A DNA stretch of 64,000 nucleotides, taken from Niabella soli DSM 19437 (GTDB lineage Bacteria > Bacteroidota > Bacteroidia > Chitinophagales > Chitinophagaceae). The translations under genes and the position numbers were made by a program. Positions 2,697 to 64,000 of the stretch are shown here, one piece after another. The stretch is from contig NZ_CP007035.1 of assembly GCF_000243115.2 (NCBI RefSeq), forward strand, positions 1,860,001 through 1,924,000, read 5' to 3'. The notes under the pieces are model-generated. The model did no database searches and was not told the DNA's origin. It saw only the letters and a list, made by a program, of their open reading frames with translations. Every line of letters starts with the position of its first letter. Within the stretch, counting starts at the first letter, position 1.

Positions 2697-3251
2697 ATGA
2701 CAGAAAAAGAAAAGTGCAAACAGGGACTGCTCTATGCAGCGAATGATGAACAATTAACAGCGGAGCGGCGTATTTGCAAAAGTATATGCCAGCAATATAA
2801 TCAAACGGAATATTCAAACATCGAAAAAAGAAATGAGCTCCTTGAAAAAATAATCAAAAAAACCAAACAGCATTTTGTAATTGAACAACCGTTTTGGTGC
2901 GACTATGGCTATAATATTGAGCTGGGTGAAAACTTCTATTCGAATCACAATCTTATCATATTAGATGGCGCCAAAGTAACGTTTGGAGATAACGTATTTA
3001 TAGGGCCTAATTGCGGTTTCTATACGGCGGGGCATCCGGTAAATATTGAACAAAGAAATGAAGGGCTCGAATATGCCCAACCTATTACCATCGGCAATAA
3101 CGTTTGGCTGGGTGGAAATGCAGTAGTTATGCCTGGTGTAACCATTGGTGATAATACAATTATAGGAGCCGGAAGCGTGGTAACTAAACCGATTCCGGGG
3201 AATGTGGTTGCAGTGGGCAATCCCTGCCGTATTTTAAAAGAATTAAAATAA
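2697..3251 (+). CDS. Maltose/galactoside O-acetyltransferase family protein
   Basis: This 184-residue protein belongs to the maltose/nodulation/galactoside O-acetyltransferases (Maa, LacA, NodL), which move an acetyl group from acetyl-CoA to a sugar hydroxyl. An N-terminal Maa-type helical region (about 1-60) is followed by a left-handed hexapeptide beta-helix made of imperfect I/V-G-x-x-x-x repeats from about residue 75 to the end. The catalytic histidine is H113 in YTAGHP. Family members are cytoplasmic trimers. It follows mutS by 40 bases with no obvious terminator, so read-through is possible, but there is no functional link. The physiological substrate cannot be told from sequence; general detoxification of non-metabolised sugars is the usual proposal. 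Confidence 0.9.
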   Translation: MTEKEKCKQGLLYAANDEQLTAERRICKSICQQYNQTEYSNIEKRNELLEKIIKKTKQHFVIEQPFWCDYGYNIELGENFYSNHNLIILDGAKVTFGDNVFIGPNCGFYTAGHPVNIEQRNEGLEYAQPITIGNNVWLGGNAVVMPGVTIGDNTIIGAGSVVTKPIPGNVVAVGNPCRILKELK

Positions 3252-3441
3252 CAACGCCGCAAAGTAACATTTGGCCAGGGAGCCGGTGAAACGATAGGTC
3301 AAAGACAATTGACAACAATATCTTCCCGCATTTCCGTCTTCCCGGCACTGATTTGCGTCTGGCTTTTTACACGGCCACAAAGGGCTTCTCCGCTTTTCAC
3401 ATTTCTTTCGTTTCTTTGCACCTGCTGAACAATACAAACAA

Positions 3442-4185
3442 ATGAAATTAGATATATTAGCTATCGGTGTGCACCCGGACGACGTAGAGTTATGCTGCGC
3501 GGGCACGCTGTTAAAAGAAATCCAATCCGGAAAAAAGGCCGGAATCATTGACCTTACCCAGGGGGAATTAGGTACCAGGGGCACAAAGGAAACCCGTTAT
3601 AAGGAAGCTGCCGATGCGGCACGGATCATGGGCGTCTCCGTAAGAGAGAATTTAAAAATGCGGGACGGCTTTTTTAAAAATGATGAGGAGCACCAGCTAC
3701 AATTGATAAAAGTGATCCGCAAATACCAGCCCGATATTATTTTGGGCAATGTATTGAACGACCGGCATCCCGACCATGGCCGCGCAGGGCATTTGATCAA
3801 CGACGCCTGCTTCCTCTCGGGATTGGCTAAGATCGAAACGTTTGACGATGCCGGCGCCCCCCAGCAAAAGTGGCGCCCTGCCTATTTCTTTCAATACATG
3901 CAAGATTGGTTTCATGATCCCAACCTGGTTATTGACATTTCCGATGTTATTGACCTCAAAATGAAAGCAATAGAAGCATACGCCACCCAATTTTATACAG
4001 GTGCTGCCCCCTCGGGGGATGCGGAGCCCCAAACCTACATCTCTACGCCGGACTTCCGGGAAAGCATTTTAGCCAGAAGCCGCATGCTGGGCAAGCGGAT
4101 CGGCGTAAAATATGCAGAAGGCTTATTGAGTACCAAGGTAATAGGAATGTCCAACCTATCAGGCGTTATCCTGAATGAGACCTGA
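3442..4185 (+). CDS. bshB1: Bacillithiol biosynthesis deacetylase BshB1
   Basis: BshB1 removes the acetyl group from GlcNAc-malate to give GlcN-malate, the second step of bacillithiol synthesis, and uses a divalent metal. The 247-residue protein is a LmbE/PIG-L family member: the metal-binding HPDD motif is at residues 11-14 and the second motif HPDH at 109-112. Bacillithiol is the low-molecular-weight thiol of many Bacteroidota as well as Firmicutes, and Bacteroidota BshB1 proteins have this length and start. bshA and bshC are not in the window. The leader contains TTTCTTTG at 3411-3418, one base off the TAnnTTTG box, with a leader of about 20 bases. A general LmbE deacetylase on another GlcNAc conjugate is the alternative. 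Confidence 0.88.
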   Translation: MKLDILAIGVHPDDVELCCAGTLLKEIQSGKKAGIIDLTQGELGTRGTKETRYKEAADAARIMGVSVRENLKMRDGFFKNDEEHQLQLIKVIRKYQPDIILGNVLNDRHPDHGRAGHLINDACFLSGLAKIETFDDAGAPQQKWRPAYFFQYMQDWFHDPNLVIDISDVIDLKMKAIEAYATQFYTGAAPSGDAEPQTYISTPDFRESILARSRMLGKRIGVKYAEGLLSTKVIGMSNLSGVILNET

Positions 4186-59866: not shown

Positions 59867-60364
59867 ATGACCCGTATCCCAGGTTTTCTCTTTACTATCG
59901 CATTTATACTTTTAATCAGTTCCTGCGCCGCCCCTTCCCGCGCCCAGGACAACGACAACGAACCCGGCTTTAGCAGCAACGCCTTGCTAGGGCAGATCAA
60001 TGCTATTCGCGCAAAAGGATGCAATTGCGGGGGCGTGCGCTACCGCGCGGTTCCTCCGGTACGGTGGAATACGAAACTGGAAAATGCTGCGGTTGCGCAA
60101 AGTAATTATATGCAGCGAACCAATCAGCTAACCCATACGGGGCGCAACGGCACTACCCCCGGGAAAAGAATTACAGCCGCGGGCTACCGGTGGAGTTATA
60201 TGGCCGAGAACGTTGCCATGGGACAGCAAAACACCACCCAGGTCATGCAAAGCTGGCTGCAAAGCCCGGCTCATTGCAAAAACATTATGAGCCCTTACGT
60301 TTCCGAAATTGGCGCAGCCCGTTCCGGGCGTTACTGGACGCTCGATCTGGCCAATCCCCAATAA
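59867..60364 (+). CDS. CAP (SCP-like) domain lipoprotein
   Basis: A 165-residue protein with a lipoprotein signal (lipobox LLISSC, Cys about 20) and one CAP domain of the CRISP/antigen 5/PR-1 superfamily. Seen: LLGQINAIRAKGCNCGGV, VRWNTKLENAAVAQSNYM, LTHTGRNGTTPGKRI, MAENVAMGQQ and SPAHCKNIMSPYVSEIGAARSGRYW. The His and Glu that form the CAP cavity are present. Bacterial CAP proteins are exported, with proposed lipid-binding or protease-inhibitory roles. No partner gene is next to it. Confidence 0.9.
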   Translation: MTRIPGFLFTIAFILLISSCAAPSRAQDNDNEPGFSSNALLGQINAIRAKGCNCGGVRYRAVPPVRWNTKLENAAVAQSNYMQRTNQLTHTGRNGTTPGKRITAAGYRWSYMAENVAMGQQNTTQVMQSWLQSPAHCKNIMSPYVSEIGAARSGRYWTLDLANPQ

Positions 60365-60408: not shown

Positions 60409-60635
60409 CTTCGGAACTTGCAGTTCCGAAGTTCCCTTTTGTCGCTTCAAGCGACAAAATAAGGTTGCGAAACTACAAGTTTCGCAGAGTGTGGAAGCAA
60501 TGGCTCACAGAACTGCACAGAAAAAAATATCAACCGAAAAAATCTGTGCAAATCCGGGTAATCTGTGAGCAAAAAAATACATTCGGCGGTGCAAGGCTGC
60601 AAGCCTAGCACCATTATGCTATCGCCTCCGGCGAT
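60409..60635. repeat. Array of five small hairpins upstream of miaE
   Basis: Hairpins at 60409-60431 (CTTCGGAACT/AGTTCCGAAG, loop TGC), 60437-60459 (TTTTGTCGCTT/AAGCGACAAAA), 60466-60486 (TGCGAAACT/AGTTTCGCA, loop ACA), 60588-60612 (GGTGCAAGGCT/AGCCTAGCACC, one mismatch) and 60621-60635 (ATCGCC/GGCGAT, loop TCC). Stems differ in sequence but share size and tiny loops. Between the third and fourth lies an AATCTGTGCAAATC-type word run. Confidence 0.7.
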
Positions 60636-60649
60636 CAGTTAATTTATAT

Positions 60650-60657
60650 TAATTTCG
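60650..60657 (+). promoter_or_regulatory. miaE -7-like box (TAATTTCG), ATG six bases later
   Basis: TAATTTCG is one base off TAnnTTTG and is followed by CACCCT and ATG, the same layout as at valS (TAATTTTG CACCCCT ATG). Confidence 0.5.
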
Positions 60658-60663
60658 CACCCT

Positions 60664-61272
60664 ATGGACCTTTCTCAAGACACGAAAAATATCCTGGGAC
60701 TGAAGCTGCCCACAGATCCCCGGTGGGTGAACCTGGCTGAAATCTCGCTGGAAGCGATCCTTACAGATCATGCCTATTGCGAACAAAAAGCAGCCACCAC
60801 CTGCATCTCCATTATACAACGCTATAGCGATAAAGACAAGCTGGTAAAAGCATTGGCACCCATCGTTACGGAAGAATGGGGCCATTTTCGCCTGGTATTA
60901 CAGGAGCTGGAAAAAAGAGGCTTAAAACTGGGGCGTCAAAGAAAGGACGAGTATGTAAACGCCTTATTACAATTCCAGGAAAAGGGCGGTCACCCGGATG
61001 ACGTCTTCCTGGACAGGCTGCTTACCATGGCAATGATCGAAGCCCGGAGCTGCGAACGTTTTAAACGGCTGAGTGAAGGATTAAACGATCCTTACATGAG
61101 TAAATTCTACCGCCGCTTTATGGAAAGCGAGGCCGGGCATTACACCTTATTTATTGAATTAGCGGAAACCTACCTGCCGAAAGAAAAAGTGCGGGCGCGC
61201 TGGGAGACATGGCTGCAACATGAAAAAGCGTTGATGAAAGAGATGGAAGTGCGGGGCGACCGTATCCATTAA
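60664..61272 (+). CDS. miaE: tRNA-(ms2io6A)-hydroxylase (MiaE)
   Basis: MiaE hydroxylates the isopentenyl group of ms2i6A-37 in tRNAs reading UNN codons, with a di-iron centre and oxygen. The 202-residue protein is a ferritin-like four-helix bundle; iron ligands seen are Glu40, ExxH at 71-74 (EEWGH), Glu126 in IEARSCERF and ExxH at 156-159 (SEAGH). The start LGLKLPTDPRWVNLAE is typical. The gene has a leaderless-type start and is followed by an inverted repeat shared with the convergent bufC. Confidence 0.92.
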   Translation: MDLSQDTKNILGLKLPTDPRWVNLAEISLEAILTDHAYCEQKAATTCISIIQRYSDKDKLVKALAPIVTEEWGHFRLVLQELEKRGLKLGRQRKDEYVNALLQFQEKGGHPDDVFLDRLLTMAMIEARSCERFKRLSEGLNDPYMSKFYRRFMESEAGHYTLFIELAETYLPKEKVRARWETWLQHEKALMKEMEVRGDRIH

Positions 61273-61323
61273 AGACCTGTGAGGTTTCCGCCACGGCGGA
61301 CAGGTTTGAAACCTCACAGGTCT
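61273..61323. terminator. 15-bp inverted repeat between miaE and bufC
   Basis: AGACCTGTGAGGTTT (61273-61287) and AAACCTCACAGGTCT (61309-61323) are perfect, with a CCGCCACGGCGG hairpin inside. It follows the miaE stop directly, and its right arm includes the first two bases of the bufC stop codon. It would act as a bidirectional terminator; the ACCTGTGAGGTTT word is a common Bacteroidota repeat. Confidence 0.6.
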
Positions 61324-62071
61324 ATTTTGCAAACCCTGCTATCAACCCCTGTTGCAGTGCCGTTTGCAGAAAATTCAGTACGGCTTCTTTGTCGGTTTCC
61401 GACAATTGCAAAGCATTTTCCCTTTCGAACAATGAAAATAATTCCGTGCCTGTATAAGGCGCTTCTTCCAGGTATTCAATCATACGTACCAGGGCCGCGG
61501 CCACATCTGTAAAGATCACTTCGCCATCGGAATTGCGATGGCCTACTACAAAGTAGTGTCCTTTGTCAGACGCCCTGATCGTTCCCGGATTTTTCTGATG
61601 AACCGGGTATTCAAAGGTCAGTAATAAATGTTCGGGGTTTATCATCAGCTTATCTGTTCGAAGATCGCCGCTTGCTGCTGCGGAAATAAGCTGATCTTCC
61701 ATCATGAACAGTTCTACCTCTACCCACTCAAACCACAGTAATTCCTTTAAAAACGAATAAGTGTCTAAAATTGAATGTGTCGTTTCTGTAAGATATTGAT
61801 AAAACTCTTTCGGCATGTACCATACCTGCGGCGACTGGCAGGGATGGTTGGTGAAAAAATCGTGAACAATTGCGTTCCATTCTGCCTCTTCCAAAAGGTC
61901 GTATGTAAGGGGGTATGCGTTTTGCAGCATGTCATCGATCACATTCAATACCAATCTTCGATACTGCGGCACATTTTCTTTTACTACTCCTGGAATATTT
62001 TCAAGCATACCGGTGCGGCAATAGTTGGCCAGCGCCGATTGGTATTGTTGTGTGGTGTTACGCAATTGCAT
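61322..62071 (-). CDS. bufC: HvfC/BufC family RiPP modification partner (DUF2063)
   Basis: A 249-residue protein of the DUF2063 family, earlier named DNA-binding domain, now known to pair with DUF692 enzymes. Seen: YRRLVLNVIDDMLQNAYPLTYDLL in the N-terminal helical domain (about 1-110), YMPKEFYQYL, and a C-terminal winged-helix-like domain (about 170-249). The partner recruits the precursor peptide to the MNIO enzyme, by analogy with BufC/HvfC and MbnC. It overlaps bufB by 14 bases, so the two are translationally coupled. Identification depends on context as well as on the sequence. Confidence 0.88.
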   Translation of the reverse strand: MQLRNTTQQYQSALANYCRTGMLENIPGVVKENVPQYRRLVLNVIDDMLQNAYPLTYDLLEEAEWNAIVHDFFTNHPCQSPQVWYMPKEFYQYLTETTHSILDTYSFLKELLWFEWVEVELFMMEDQLISAAASGDLRTDKLMINPEHLLLTFEYPVHQKNPGTIRASDKGHYFVVGHRNSDGEVIFTDVAAALVRMIEYLEEAPYTGTELFSLFERENALQLSETDKEAVLNFLQTALQQGLIAGFAK

Positions 62072-62888
62072 AATTTTTGGTCTGCAAAGCAGCCTGTTTA
62101 ATCCTGTTTAACCGCTCCATTTCCGCCTGCAGTTCGTTCAACTGCGGAAAATTAAAATCCCGTTCCAGCAGCACCGGAACATCCCGTTGCAATAATTGCA
62201 TGGCAAAAGCATACAGATCGTATACCGGGTCAACAATAGCTTCCCCGTGTGTATCGATGATCAGGGTGTCGGATACCTGCTCATGACCGGCCATGTGGAT
62301 ATAGGCCACGCGATCCATCGGCAACTCTTTTAAAAAGGCTTTGGGATCATACTGATGATTAAATCCGTTTACATAAACATTATTCACGTCCAGCAGCAGA
62401 TCACAATCTGCTTCTTCAAGAATAGCGTTTATAAAATCGATCTCTTTCATTTCCGGGGCTACCGGTGTGTAGTAGCTCACAATTTCAATAGCGATCCTTC
62501 GTTCCAGCAGCTCCTGGATGGTCCGGATCCTGGCAGCAACATGTTTCACTGCATCATTTGTAAAGGGTATGGGCAGCAGATCGTATAAATGCGCATTATC
62601 GCATTTCGCGTAACTCAGGTGTTCGGAATAGATCCGGGCATTGGTTTCTTTCAGAAATATTTTTACTTTCTTCAAAAATTCAAAATCCAGCTCGTCGGGG
62701 CTGCCAATAGACAACGACAGCCCATGGGTAAAAAGCGGGTAGCGCTCCAATACTTTATTGAATTGTTTTCGCCAGTAGCCCCCTACCCCGACCCAGTTCT
62801 CCGGAGCCACCTCCACAAATGCCGGTTTTAAGACATCACTGGTTAAGAATGCTTCGCCAAAATCTTTCCGATACCCTATCCCTACCAT
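62058..62888 (-). CDS. bufB: MNIO-type RiPP maturase (DUF692, BufB/HvfB-like)
   Basis: A 276-residue TIM-barrel enzyme of the DUF692 family, the multinuclear non-haem iron-dependent oxidases to which MbnB, HvfB and BufB belong; they oxidise cysteines in precursor peptides to oxazolone/thioamide or thiooxazole groups. Probable metal ligands are His55, Glu89-His90 (SEHLSY), Glu135, Asp167/Asn169 (LDVNNVYVN), His198 (YIHMAGH), Asp212/His214 (DTHGEA) and Glu242 (LERDFN). Start: ATG 62888 (MVGIGYRKDFG); an in-frame TTG nine bases upstream is possible. It lies 68 bases after the precursor gene. Confidence 0.92.
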   Translation of the reverse strand: MVGIGYRKDFGEAFLTSDVLKPAFVEVAPENWVGVGGYWRKQFNKVLERYPLFTHGLSLSIGSPDELDFEFLKKVKIFLKETNARIYSEHLSYAKCDNAHLYDLLPIPFTNDAVKHVAARIRTIQELLERRIAIEIVSYYTPVAPEMKEIDFINAILEEADCDLLLDVNNVYVNGFNHQYDPKAFLKELPMDRVAYIHMAGHEQVSDTLIIDTHGEAIVDPVYDLYAFAMQLLQRDVPVLLERDFNFPQLNELQAEMERLNRIKQAALQTKNYAIA

Positions 62889-62956
62889 TAATGACAAATT
62901 TTAAAATAACGGCAGGTGCCTAAAAATCGACCGTTAAACACCCGCCGGTTAAAAAT

Positions 62957-63292
62957 CTATTGCCCGTCTTTGGGTTTTGTTGTCGTATCTTTCTTCTTCA
63001 TTGATTTCTTTCCTGTTTTTGAACCACATTTACCATCCCCGCACTTACCATCACCACACTTTCCTTCTTTTCCTTTTTTCATAGTGCTATCGCTCTTGGC
63101 TTTATCTCCGCCGCACTTCAGTTCAAAATTTTTTGCAGCTCCCTTTTTTTCCAGGAGGTTGGTACGCATCTCTGCCCCCGTACCCAGCGAACTGTAATTA
63201 AATAATCCATTAGCATTTGCAGAAAATCCGGCCGCAGCAATAATCGCTCCGGTAAGTAAGGAACCTTTTACGATACTTTTTTTCTTTTCCAT
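62957..63292 (-). CDS. bufA: RiPP copper-metallophore precursor (bufferin/HvfA-like)
   Basis: A 111-residue peptide with an N-terminal signal sequence (about 1-27; GSLLTGAIIAAAGFSANA), a leader region (about 28-70) and a Lys/Gly-rich core with three tandem pentapeptides: EGKCG (76-80), DGKCG (81-85) and DGKCG (86-90). Cysteines are at 60, 79, 84 and 89. HvfA and bufferin precursors carry the same EGKCG repeats, whose cysteines are converted by the MNIO enzyme; the product binds copper. The tail is Lys/Thr-rich. Located directly before bufB and bufC, it is the predicted substrate. It has fewer repeats than some known precursors. Confidence 0.85.
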   Translation of the reverse strand: MEKKKSIVKGSLLTGAIIAAAGFSANANGLFNYSSLGTGAEMRTNLLEKKGAAKNFELKCGGDKAKSDSTMKKGKEGKCGDGKCGDGKCGSKTGKKSMKKKDTTTKPKDGQ

Positions 63293-63592
63293 TTTTTAAG
63301 TTTTATTGTGTTAGAAATGTTTACAGGTGAATAAACAAAGGGCCATAGGCATAACAATGCATTTCTATAAAATTAGAGAAATATCAGGCAAAAAATAAAA
63401 ATCCTGTTTGTTAAATTATTTTTTCACAGGCATGGAGTTATCCCATTACACAATCAGCACATCGGAATATCAAAAGTAGCGCCAGGCCCCGGGGAGGGTG
63501 AGAAGATAACAAACCGCGCCCGAAAAACTAGACATCCCCGAATTTCCGGTTTCCCGGCTATCGATCCGGTCCGCTTTAATACGGCCGTCCGG
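63293..63592. other. Gap between doxX and bufA
   Basis: 300 bases expected to hold the bufA promoter. An AT-rich stretch lies at 63340-63425; no exact TAnnTTTG box and no known copper-regulator operator is seen. A GCCGGGAAACCGGAAATTC repeat copy is at 63540-63559 on the reverse strand. Confidence 0.4.
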
Positions 63593-63982
63593 TTATTTTT
63601 CCACTTCCCCCGCATGGATCGCGTCCATAGACCAGGCGCCATTACCGGCGATCAAAAAATAGATCAGCAGCAACAGTACCACAATTGCCAGTAAAAGATT
63701 GGAAAAGGGTTCCATTACGTTGCCGAAAAAAGGTGCGAAGAAGACCGCGCCGAGCAGCACCGGGAGTTGCATTATGCAGGCAGCCCGGGTCAACCACCCG
63801 AAAGTAAGCAAGATACCGCCCAGGATATGCGCTCCCACTACATAATGGCCCACCAGCAGCTCTGAAAAGGAGCCGAACGACATCCACCCTGGCATCAGGC
63901 TCATAAGGCTGGTATAATTCTGCGCAAACTGGACACCTTTGTAAATCAGGAATAATCCCAGACTGATCCGCACAAGATCCAT
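63593..63982 (-). CDS. DoxX family membrane protein (start possibly outside the window)
   Basis: A protein of at least 129 residues with four membrane segments (about 4-20, 45-65, 72-95, 100-118), of the DoxX type; FLIYKGVQFAQNY and GILLTFGWLTRAACIMQL are typical. DoxX proteins accompany HvfABC/Buf operons in Proteobacteria and are thought to be membrane electron carriers. ATG 63982 starts at MDLVRISLG, but the frame stays open to position 64000 (residues HHPKW before it), so the true start may be further upstream. It is transcribed in the direction of bufA across a 300-base gap. Confidence 0.82.
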   Translation of the reverse strand: MDLVRISLGLFLIYKGVQFAQNYTSLMSLMPGWMSFGSFSELLVGHYVVGAHILGGILLTFGWLTRAACIMQLPVLLGAVFFAPFFGNVMEPFSNLLLAIVVLLLLIYFLIAGNGAWSMDAIHAGEVEK

Positions 63983-64000
63983 CCATTTTGGATGGTGTGT

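Follow-up and report, generated by a model that had tools for sequence, protein, structure and literature searches.

A window of 64,000 nucleotides from Niabella soli DSM 19437 (contig NZ_CP007035.1, positions 1,860,001 to 1,924,000) holds, near its end, three genes that we read with good confidence as an hvfABC-type operon of the Lys-Cys captophorin branch, which would make an exported, copper-binding thiooxazole peptide. Such a product belongs among the ribosomally synthesized and post-translationally modified peptides (RiPPs). The reading is carried by the genes and their families, the conservation of the catalytic site, purifying selection, and the placement of the enzyme in a tree. A preliminary description of this DNA had located the open reading frames (ORFs) of precursor, enzyme, and partner as they are given here, with a 14-base overlap (62058-62071) of the latter two, and had called the system a Bacteroidota version of HvfA/HvfB/HvfC (EGKCG). 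The ORF reading bears out the coordinates, and the enzyme and partner models, active-site residues, tree, and precursor conservation support the assignment. The genes are as follows:

62957..63292, minus strand: hvfA/bufA-like precursor gene, 111 amino acids (ORF; layout common to 84 other distinct precursors)
62058..62888, minus strand: hvfB-like gene for a multinuclear nonheme iron-dependent oxidative (MNIO) enzyme (DUF692), 276 amino acids (NF003818, PF05114)
61322..62071, minus strand: hvfC-like partner gene (DUF2063 plus NGO1945_C), 249 amino acids (NF050145, PF09836, PF22106)

Enzyme and partner

The MNIO, which starts with ATG (an alternative TTG start is possible at 62897), scores 388.8 bits against the curated HvfB model NF003818 (cut-off 360) and 329 bits against PF05114, a family with one match in the whole genome (a single contig of 4.70 Mb). 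It stays under the cut-offs of the ApyH and MbnB models. Two other memberships were considered and rejected: the bufferins, because the BufB model NF050167 gives 265.1 bits (cut-off 310) and the precursor has no DUF2282 match in Pfam, and the chryseobasins (ChrA/ChrH), because the ChrH model NF050165 gives 52.4 bits (cut-off 600) and the precursor has no CPxCGxG end. In the comparison with HvfA/BufA and HvfB/BufB proposed in the preliminary description, HvfB was reached, and BufB and the HvfA models (see below) were not. The partner passes the curated HvfC model NF050145 (143.1 bits, cut-off 142) as well as PF09836 (66.7 over 27.2) and PF22106.

The MNIO loci and genomes compared carry L-numbers and G-numbers, respectively. 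With tblastn at 1e-5, 105 of 106 loci were matched, L019 giving no match. The MNIO alignment holds 111 enzymes, leaving out L001 and L002 (copies of the window), and the tree holds 107, the duplicates L025, L029, L041, and L104 being left out too. An MNIO identity of at least 55% defines a set of 90 loci, 89 of them with a precursor (L070 has too little upstream DNA); after removal of 4 duplicates there are 85 distinct precursors, including that of the window. Two further sets were chosen by hand: A3, with 54 precursors (the window's, 51 of 76 listed references, three of them with trimmed starts, and two from plasmids), and A2, with 28 enzymes, used for the structure model. A relative of the partner adjoins the MNIO in all 85 distinct loci, the window counted, and the gap from precursor to MNIO is 44-129 nt in 77 of them. 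In L108, on a Moraxella plasmid, an IS4-family transposase gene (2975-4147) lies between the MNIO and partner genes.

The residues E26, H55, H90, E135, D167, N170, N177, H198, D212, H214, and E242 are identical in 111 of 111 aligned MNIOs and, with Asp244, are probably the iron-site ligands and the catalytic base. The Lys-Cys class has a signature in FonB (Arg15, Arg16, Asp249, Phe250; PMC13097082, cited here, like the other papers below, for parts of its text), which would map through an alignment with the structure 3BWW to Arg7, Lys8, Asp244, and Phe245 of the window enzyme. In the 90 loci, Arg7 and Asp244 are found every time; Phe245 is kept in 86, the other 4 having Tyr. Two plasmid enzymes that go with KCG precursors, from Acinetobacter and Moraxella, have Arg-Arg and Asp-Phe at these positions. 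At the position of Phe245, Gly (3) or Asp (1) stands in the four plasmid enzymes found next to Cys-Lys precursors, and Ala in the one next to a DUF2282 precursor (the precursor classes of the eight plasmid enzymes are our own reading, except for the annotated DUF2282).

A maximum-likelihood tree of the 107 enzymes puts the 86 Bacteroidota/Ignavibacteriota-group enzymes on one side of a branch (support 99/98), joins them to the KCG-type Pseudomonadota enzymes plus L111 (97/93), and separates them from the Cys-Lys/DUF2282 enzymes (99/97). The preliminary description had named a placement among other DUF692 clades as the result that would speak against it; the enzyme falls on the EGKCG side, and the description was not refuted. 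Two MNIO loci of the window's family, L009 and L010, have quite different Cys-rich candidate precursors upstream, and their enzymes lie on the Cys-Lys/DUF2282 side. The AlphaFold2 model of the enzyme, built from A2 (predicted local distance difference test score 89.6), has its best Protein Data Bank match in 3BWW, a close HvfB relative from Histophilus somni (template modeling score 0.81, 39% identity), followed by TglH and MbnB structures.

The closest named record among the matches listed is L023, from a Niabella metagenome-assembled genome (MNIO 95% identical), whose DNA is that of the genus-mate G402 across the 6,286 bases compared. Against L023, the nonsynonymous (dN) and synonymous (dS) rates are 0.021 and 0.727 for the precursor (ratio ~0.03; 31 codons with synonymous and 5 with nonsynonymous change, the core units synonymous only), 0.025 and 0.567 for the MNIO, and 0.093 and 1.081 for the partner, which is 83% identical and evolves faster than the other two. 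Judged by this codon comparison, the operon genes are under purifying selection, more than chance would give.

Of the characterized systems, HvfABC (oxazolin) of Haemophilus influenzae shares the passing HvfB and HvfC models, a precursor with KCG units and a signal peptide (a putative one in the window), and the order A-B-C. HvfA, however, has six cysteines in three AEGKCGEGKCG motifs (PMC13419390), whereas the window has three tandem units plus ELKCG, Asp in two units, the LGTGAEMR box, a precursor under the HvfA cut-offs, and no HvfX. The fontiphorin system FonA/FonB/FonC and the captophorins (PMC13097082) share the five-residue Lys-Cys repeats, the DUF2063 partner, and acceptance of DGKCG (by FonBC), and the window MNIO resembles FonB in the Arg and Asp-Phe signature residues as mapped above; it differs in having Lys for the second Arg and a Bacteroidota host. 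The Buf_EGKCG/oxazolin group (PMC12452194) likewise has a precursor with EGKCG and a signal peptide (again putative in the window), an MNIO, and a DUF2063 protein, but the window fits neither the 17-residue-repeat nor the EF-hand type described there and lacks an HvfX-type DoxX within the operon. Bufferins (Buf1, with DUF2282, and Buf2/Cys-Lys) share the enzyme superfamily and the partner type; they have other precursors, and the sampled enzymes lie on another branch, with other residues at the Phe245 position.

Precursor architecture and predicted modification sites

Four elements can be distinguished in the precursor:

63212..63292, minus strand: probable Sec signal peptide, residues 1-27 (..SANA), possibly the leader too (by eye; similar N-termini in A3)
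63164..63187, minus strand: LGTGAEMR box, between signal peptide and core (family pattern LG[ST]GxEVR)
63110..63124, minus strand: ELKCG unit with Cys60, possible fourth modification site (Cys60 column invariant in A3)
63023..63067, minus strand: precursor core EGKCG-DGKCG-DGKCG (direct reading; only synonymous differences from L023)

The core lies at residues 76-90, with Cys79, Cys84, and Cys89, and direct reading of the ORF confirms the three adjacent pentapeptides reported earlier. The whole precursor has four cysteines and is Lys-rich downstream of the putative signal peptide, which is recognized by eye from a basic N-terminus, a hydrophobic stretch, and ANA; the signal peptide of HvfA reportedly has a leader-like role (PMC13419390). 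A VOMI match in Pfam under its cut-off was taken as chance. The 85 distinct precursors usually show the same layout: a putative signal peptide, then a box of the LGSG kind (in 82 of 85), an ELxCG-type unit, and a variable xGKCG array in a Lys-rich background. In A3, G37 and R43 of the box are at least 90% conserved, and Met1, Cys60, Lys78, and Cys79 are the invariant columns. From this conservation, the box is possibly a recognition element.

The preliminary description had regarded Cys60 as an extra leader cysteine and Asp in place of Glu as distinguishing. Counts in the 85 precursors and conservation in A3 show instead that Asp is ordinary and that Cys60, in ELKCG, belongs to the first unit of the family. 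EGKCG occurs in 78 precursors and DGKCG in 45; position 1 of the xxKCG units is E 200 times, D 137 times, and Q 13 times; and FonBC brought about full modification of a substrate with DGKCG (PMC13097082). The first cysteine past the signal region sits in E/D-x-x-C-G/S/A in 84 of 85, the exception being L089, in which a different cysteine comes earlier. Three adjacent units are found in 15 of 85, and the exact pair DGKCGDGKCG only in the window and L023.

Given the chemistry of HvfBC and FonBC on EGKCG units, and of FonBC on DGKCG, three and probably four thiooxazoles would be expected. There is an appreciable, though lesser, chance that only the three tandem cysteines are modified and that Cys60 stays free or serves another contact, for structure or recognition. 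Cys60 lies 19 residues ahead of the Cys of the next unit, a single-repeat substrate was left unmodified by FonBC (PMC13097082), and many first units have a residue other than Lys at position 3 (ELNCG in 11 of 85, ELACG in 9 of 85). Against these points, Cys60 is invariant in A3; 84 of 85 precursors resemble modified units in opening this pentapeptide with E/D and closing it with a small residue; and Ala, Arg, and Thr were tolerated at position 3 in FonA double variants (PMC13097082). We retain the fourth site as probable.

Probable chemistry of the product and copper

By analogy with characterized relatives, we attribute to the operon the formation of 5-thiooxazoles ahead of export, the binding of copper, and a role in stress. 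In HvfBC and FonBC, the cysteines of EGKCG units become 5-thiooxazoles with a loss of ~4 Da (PMC13097082, PMC13419390); the oxazolone/thioamide chemistry that the preliminary description had quoted for HvfA has since been re-assigned to 5-thiooxazole in the same papers. HvfA without its signal sequence showed a mass loss of only 2.5 Da (PMC13419390). In the window, the HvfC-like DUF2063 partner would grip the precursor via its N-terminal region, and the iron-dependent MNIO would oxidize the xGKCG cysteines to 5-thiooxazoles (~-4 Da each) ahead of Sec export. Cleavage of the signal peptide would then leave a Lys-rich peptide, ~84 residues long, in which the three tandem cysteines and probably Cys60 as well are modified. 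This peptide may bind copper outside the cytoplasm and so buffer copper stress. If cleavage follows Ala27, residues 28-111 have a calculated monoisotopic mass of 8820.40 when unmodified, 8808.31 with three cysteines modified, and 8804.28 with all four.

Several points weigh against the assignment and should be kept in mind. The precursor fails both curated HvfA models (NF050188, 11.8 bits, cut-off 95; NF050137, 10.5 bits, cut-off 19.5), and at an E value of 0.01 they give no match to it, although 45 and 43 of the 54 A3 members match. By this measure it is an outlying member among its A3 relatives, and because it lies under those cut-offs, we class it as HvfA-like, of the broader Lys-Cys class, rather than as HvfA proper. 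The partner passes the HvfC model by a margin of ~1 bit. Position 8 of the MNIO is Lys, as opposed to Arg16 of FonB (Lys in 68 and Arg in 22 of the 90 loci), and L111, from a Sphingomonas plasmid with KC units in its precursor, carries Pro at position 8 and Asn in place of Phe245, so that, on sequence, the Phe245 rule for the Lys-Cys class is not strict. Long branches meet in the MNIO tree, as flagged by the program. As to function, the EGKCG products tested bound copper heterogeneously and with precipitation, and the authors left the physiological role of these peptides open (both PMC13097082). Because the operon has no HvfX, sigma factor, or copper gene, the copper role is drawn from the family.

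A soft metal other than copper, or an oxidant, is an unlikely target of the product. Roles beyond copper have been suggested for some MNIO clusters (PMC12452194), and most relatives have a sigma/anti-sigma pair of the extracytoplasmic function (ECF) type, as stress genes often do, but copper was bound by the EGKCG products that had been assayed with it (PMC13097082). Copper binding remains our preferred reading.

Neighboring genes and distribution

The preliminary description had placed a DoxX protein at the head of the operon. Its gene runs past the end of the window:

63593-64036, same strand as the operon: DoxX gene, 147 amino acids (ORF; Pfam DoxX 34.7 over 23.6)

The ORF is real, and it lies upstream of the precursor gene, across a gap of 300 nt. 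These facts and the Pfam match favor a four-gene doxX-bufA-bufB-bufC operon with DoxX as an HvfX-like partner, a proposal that is by now largely refuted and that we consider very improbable. At full length, the window DoxX gives 10.9 bits against the HvfX model (cut-off 80), while in Daejeonella L024 the DoxX that follows the operon reaches 129.5. Two further DoxX proteins of the window's genome come closer to the model (53.1 and 46.0 bits, still under the cut-off). An HvfX-type DoxX adjoins the operon, downstream, in 55 of the 81 relatives whose flanks reach far enough; in the window, the place after the partner gene is taken by a MiaE-like gene. An iterated search recovered the window DoxX at no locus among the other 84, a set that includes short upstream flanks (52 bases in L023, 0.4-1.2 kb in others).

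The two also segregate independently. A DoxX homologue is present in 6 of the 16 genomes searched, own included; in the other four carriers with an HvfB-like MNIO (G145, G065, G289, G381), the two genes are on other contigs or more than 1 Mb apart. Within the genus, 7 of 16 other genomes have a DoxX orthologue (73-82% identity) and no HvfB-like MNIO; the window's genome, alone among the 17, has both. G402, which has the operon (MNIO 95%), gives no DoxX match; because its genome is fragmented, at ~90% completeness, this absence is weaker evidence. G397, G399, and G401 preserve the arrangement MiaE, slot, DoxX, endonuclease-like, YggS-like, in which the final two genes were identified by eye. 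The operon genes have no match in this region, and the slots inspected, those of G397 and G401, are occupied by other genes. From this conserved order and the independent segregation, the operon occupies a variable slot, with DoxX as its resident neighbor; on these comparisons, DoxX lies outside the operon. The preliminary description therefore holds for precursor, enzyme, partner, and family, and not for DoxX membership, an extra Cys60, or Asp/Glu as a distinguishing mark.

The next gene downstream, in the opposite direction, is the MiaE-like one (60664-61272; Pfam MiaE 144.1 bits over 27), which adjoins a gene for a CAP-domain (YkwD-like) protein at 59867-60364, 91% identical in L023. An Rfam scan of 60500-64000 gave no match. 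Neither the promoter-like sites of the same region (9, with 5.8 in shuffled sequence, standard deviation 2.2) nor the short inverted repeats between the precursor and DoxX genes, within the gap of 300 bases, led anywhere, and a Bacteroidota-type promoter (motif TTTG / TAnnTTTG), sought against mononucleotide shuffles, gave no match. Recent transfer was rejected as far as base composition can tell (operon GC content 0.443 versus a 2-kb-window mean of 0.452, standard deviation 0.017).

Of 72 loci whose flank is long enough, 57 have a sigma factor upstream of the operon and 58 a small anti-sigma-like protein; the window, itself one of the 72, has neither. The two genes form a recurrent cassette in most relatives (L004, L024, L081). 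The L024 sigma factor matches an ECF sigma model (74.2 over 42.9), and its companion falls just under an anti-sigma model (47.4, cut-off 50). Used as queries in the window's genome, the L024 sigma factor yielded nothing beyond incomplete, low-scoring matches (top score 30.2 bits) and the L024 DoxX a pair of generic matches (37.9 and 25.5 bits), so that no orthologue of either was identified. That the cluster has decayed after loss of its regulator and HvfX, as the absence of sigma factor, anti-sigma, and HvfX beside the operon and these weak matches (30.2, 37.9 bits) might suggest, is hardly credible against three intact ORFs, purifying selection versus L023 on each, complete catalytic-site residues, and the same three absences in L036, L037, and L083 despite ample flanks (among 69 other loci with both flanks).

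By the titles of their records, 77 of the 80 best named loci, in a list of at least 142, are from Bacteroidota/Ignavibacteriota. L041, L043, and L073 (Beijerinckiaceae, Patescibacteria, and Saccharibacteria titles) are Bacteroidota-like loci, possibly from misbinned contigs, and the L041 precursor equals that of L006, from a genome of the window's family. The operon is patchy, occurring in 2 of 17 genus genomes, and an HvfB-like MNIO at 61% identity or more in 6 of 147 family genomes, own included in both. A distant MNIO (23-27% identity) beside a CPxCGMG precursor, of the chryseobasin kind, occurs in G391 and G401 (two of the seven DoxX-bearing genomes) and in G119. Chryseobasin-type clusters, a known group (PMC12636315), are thus present in three genomes of the genus, and short ORFs ending in CPACGMG or similar lie near distant MNIOs in L015, L016, L018, L021, L022, L148, and L149.

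The Buf_EGKCG/oxazolin group is placed mostly in Pseudomonadota (PMC12452194), and Bacteroidota are mentioned for the ChrH branch (PMC12636315). The term "bacteroid" has no match in the main text of the surveys PMC12452194 and PMC13097082, whose figures or supplements may list a Bacteroidota member; as far as the main text of these open-licence surveys goes, the EGKCG branch in Bacteroidota/Ignavibacteriota is not described. Because the HvfA models match most of the 54 chosen precursors (E up to 0.01), we see it as an extension of a known family rather than a surprise. As a tentative proposal, which may well need revision, these precursors could form a bipartite subclass, with an LG[ST]GxEVR box read by the partner, a modified ELxCG unit as the founding copper site, a variable [DE]GKCG array, and mostly an ECF sigma/anti-sigma pair of their own, shed with HvfX in the window's lineage.

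The gene content of the operon is corrected here to three genes, without doxX. A copper-handling RiPP pathway characterized, in the parts of the literature cited, in Pseudomonadota would thus have a well-populated Bacteroidota/Ignavibacteriota branch, which offers testable features in its LGSG box, ELxCG unit, and sigma-factor cassette.

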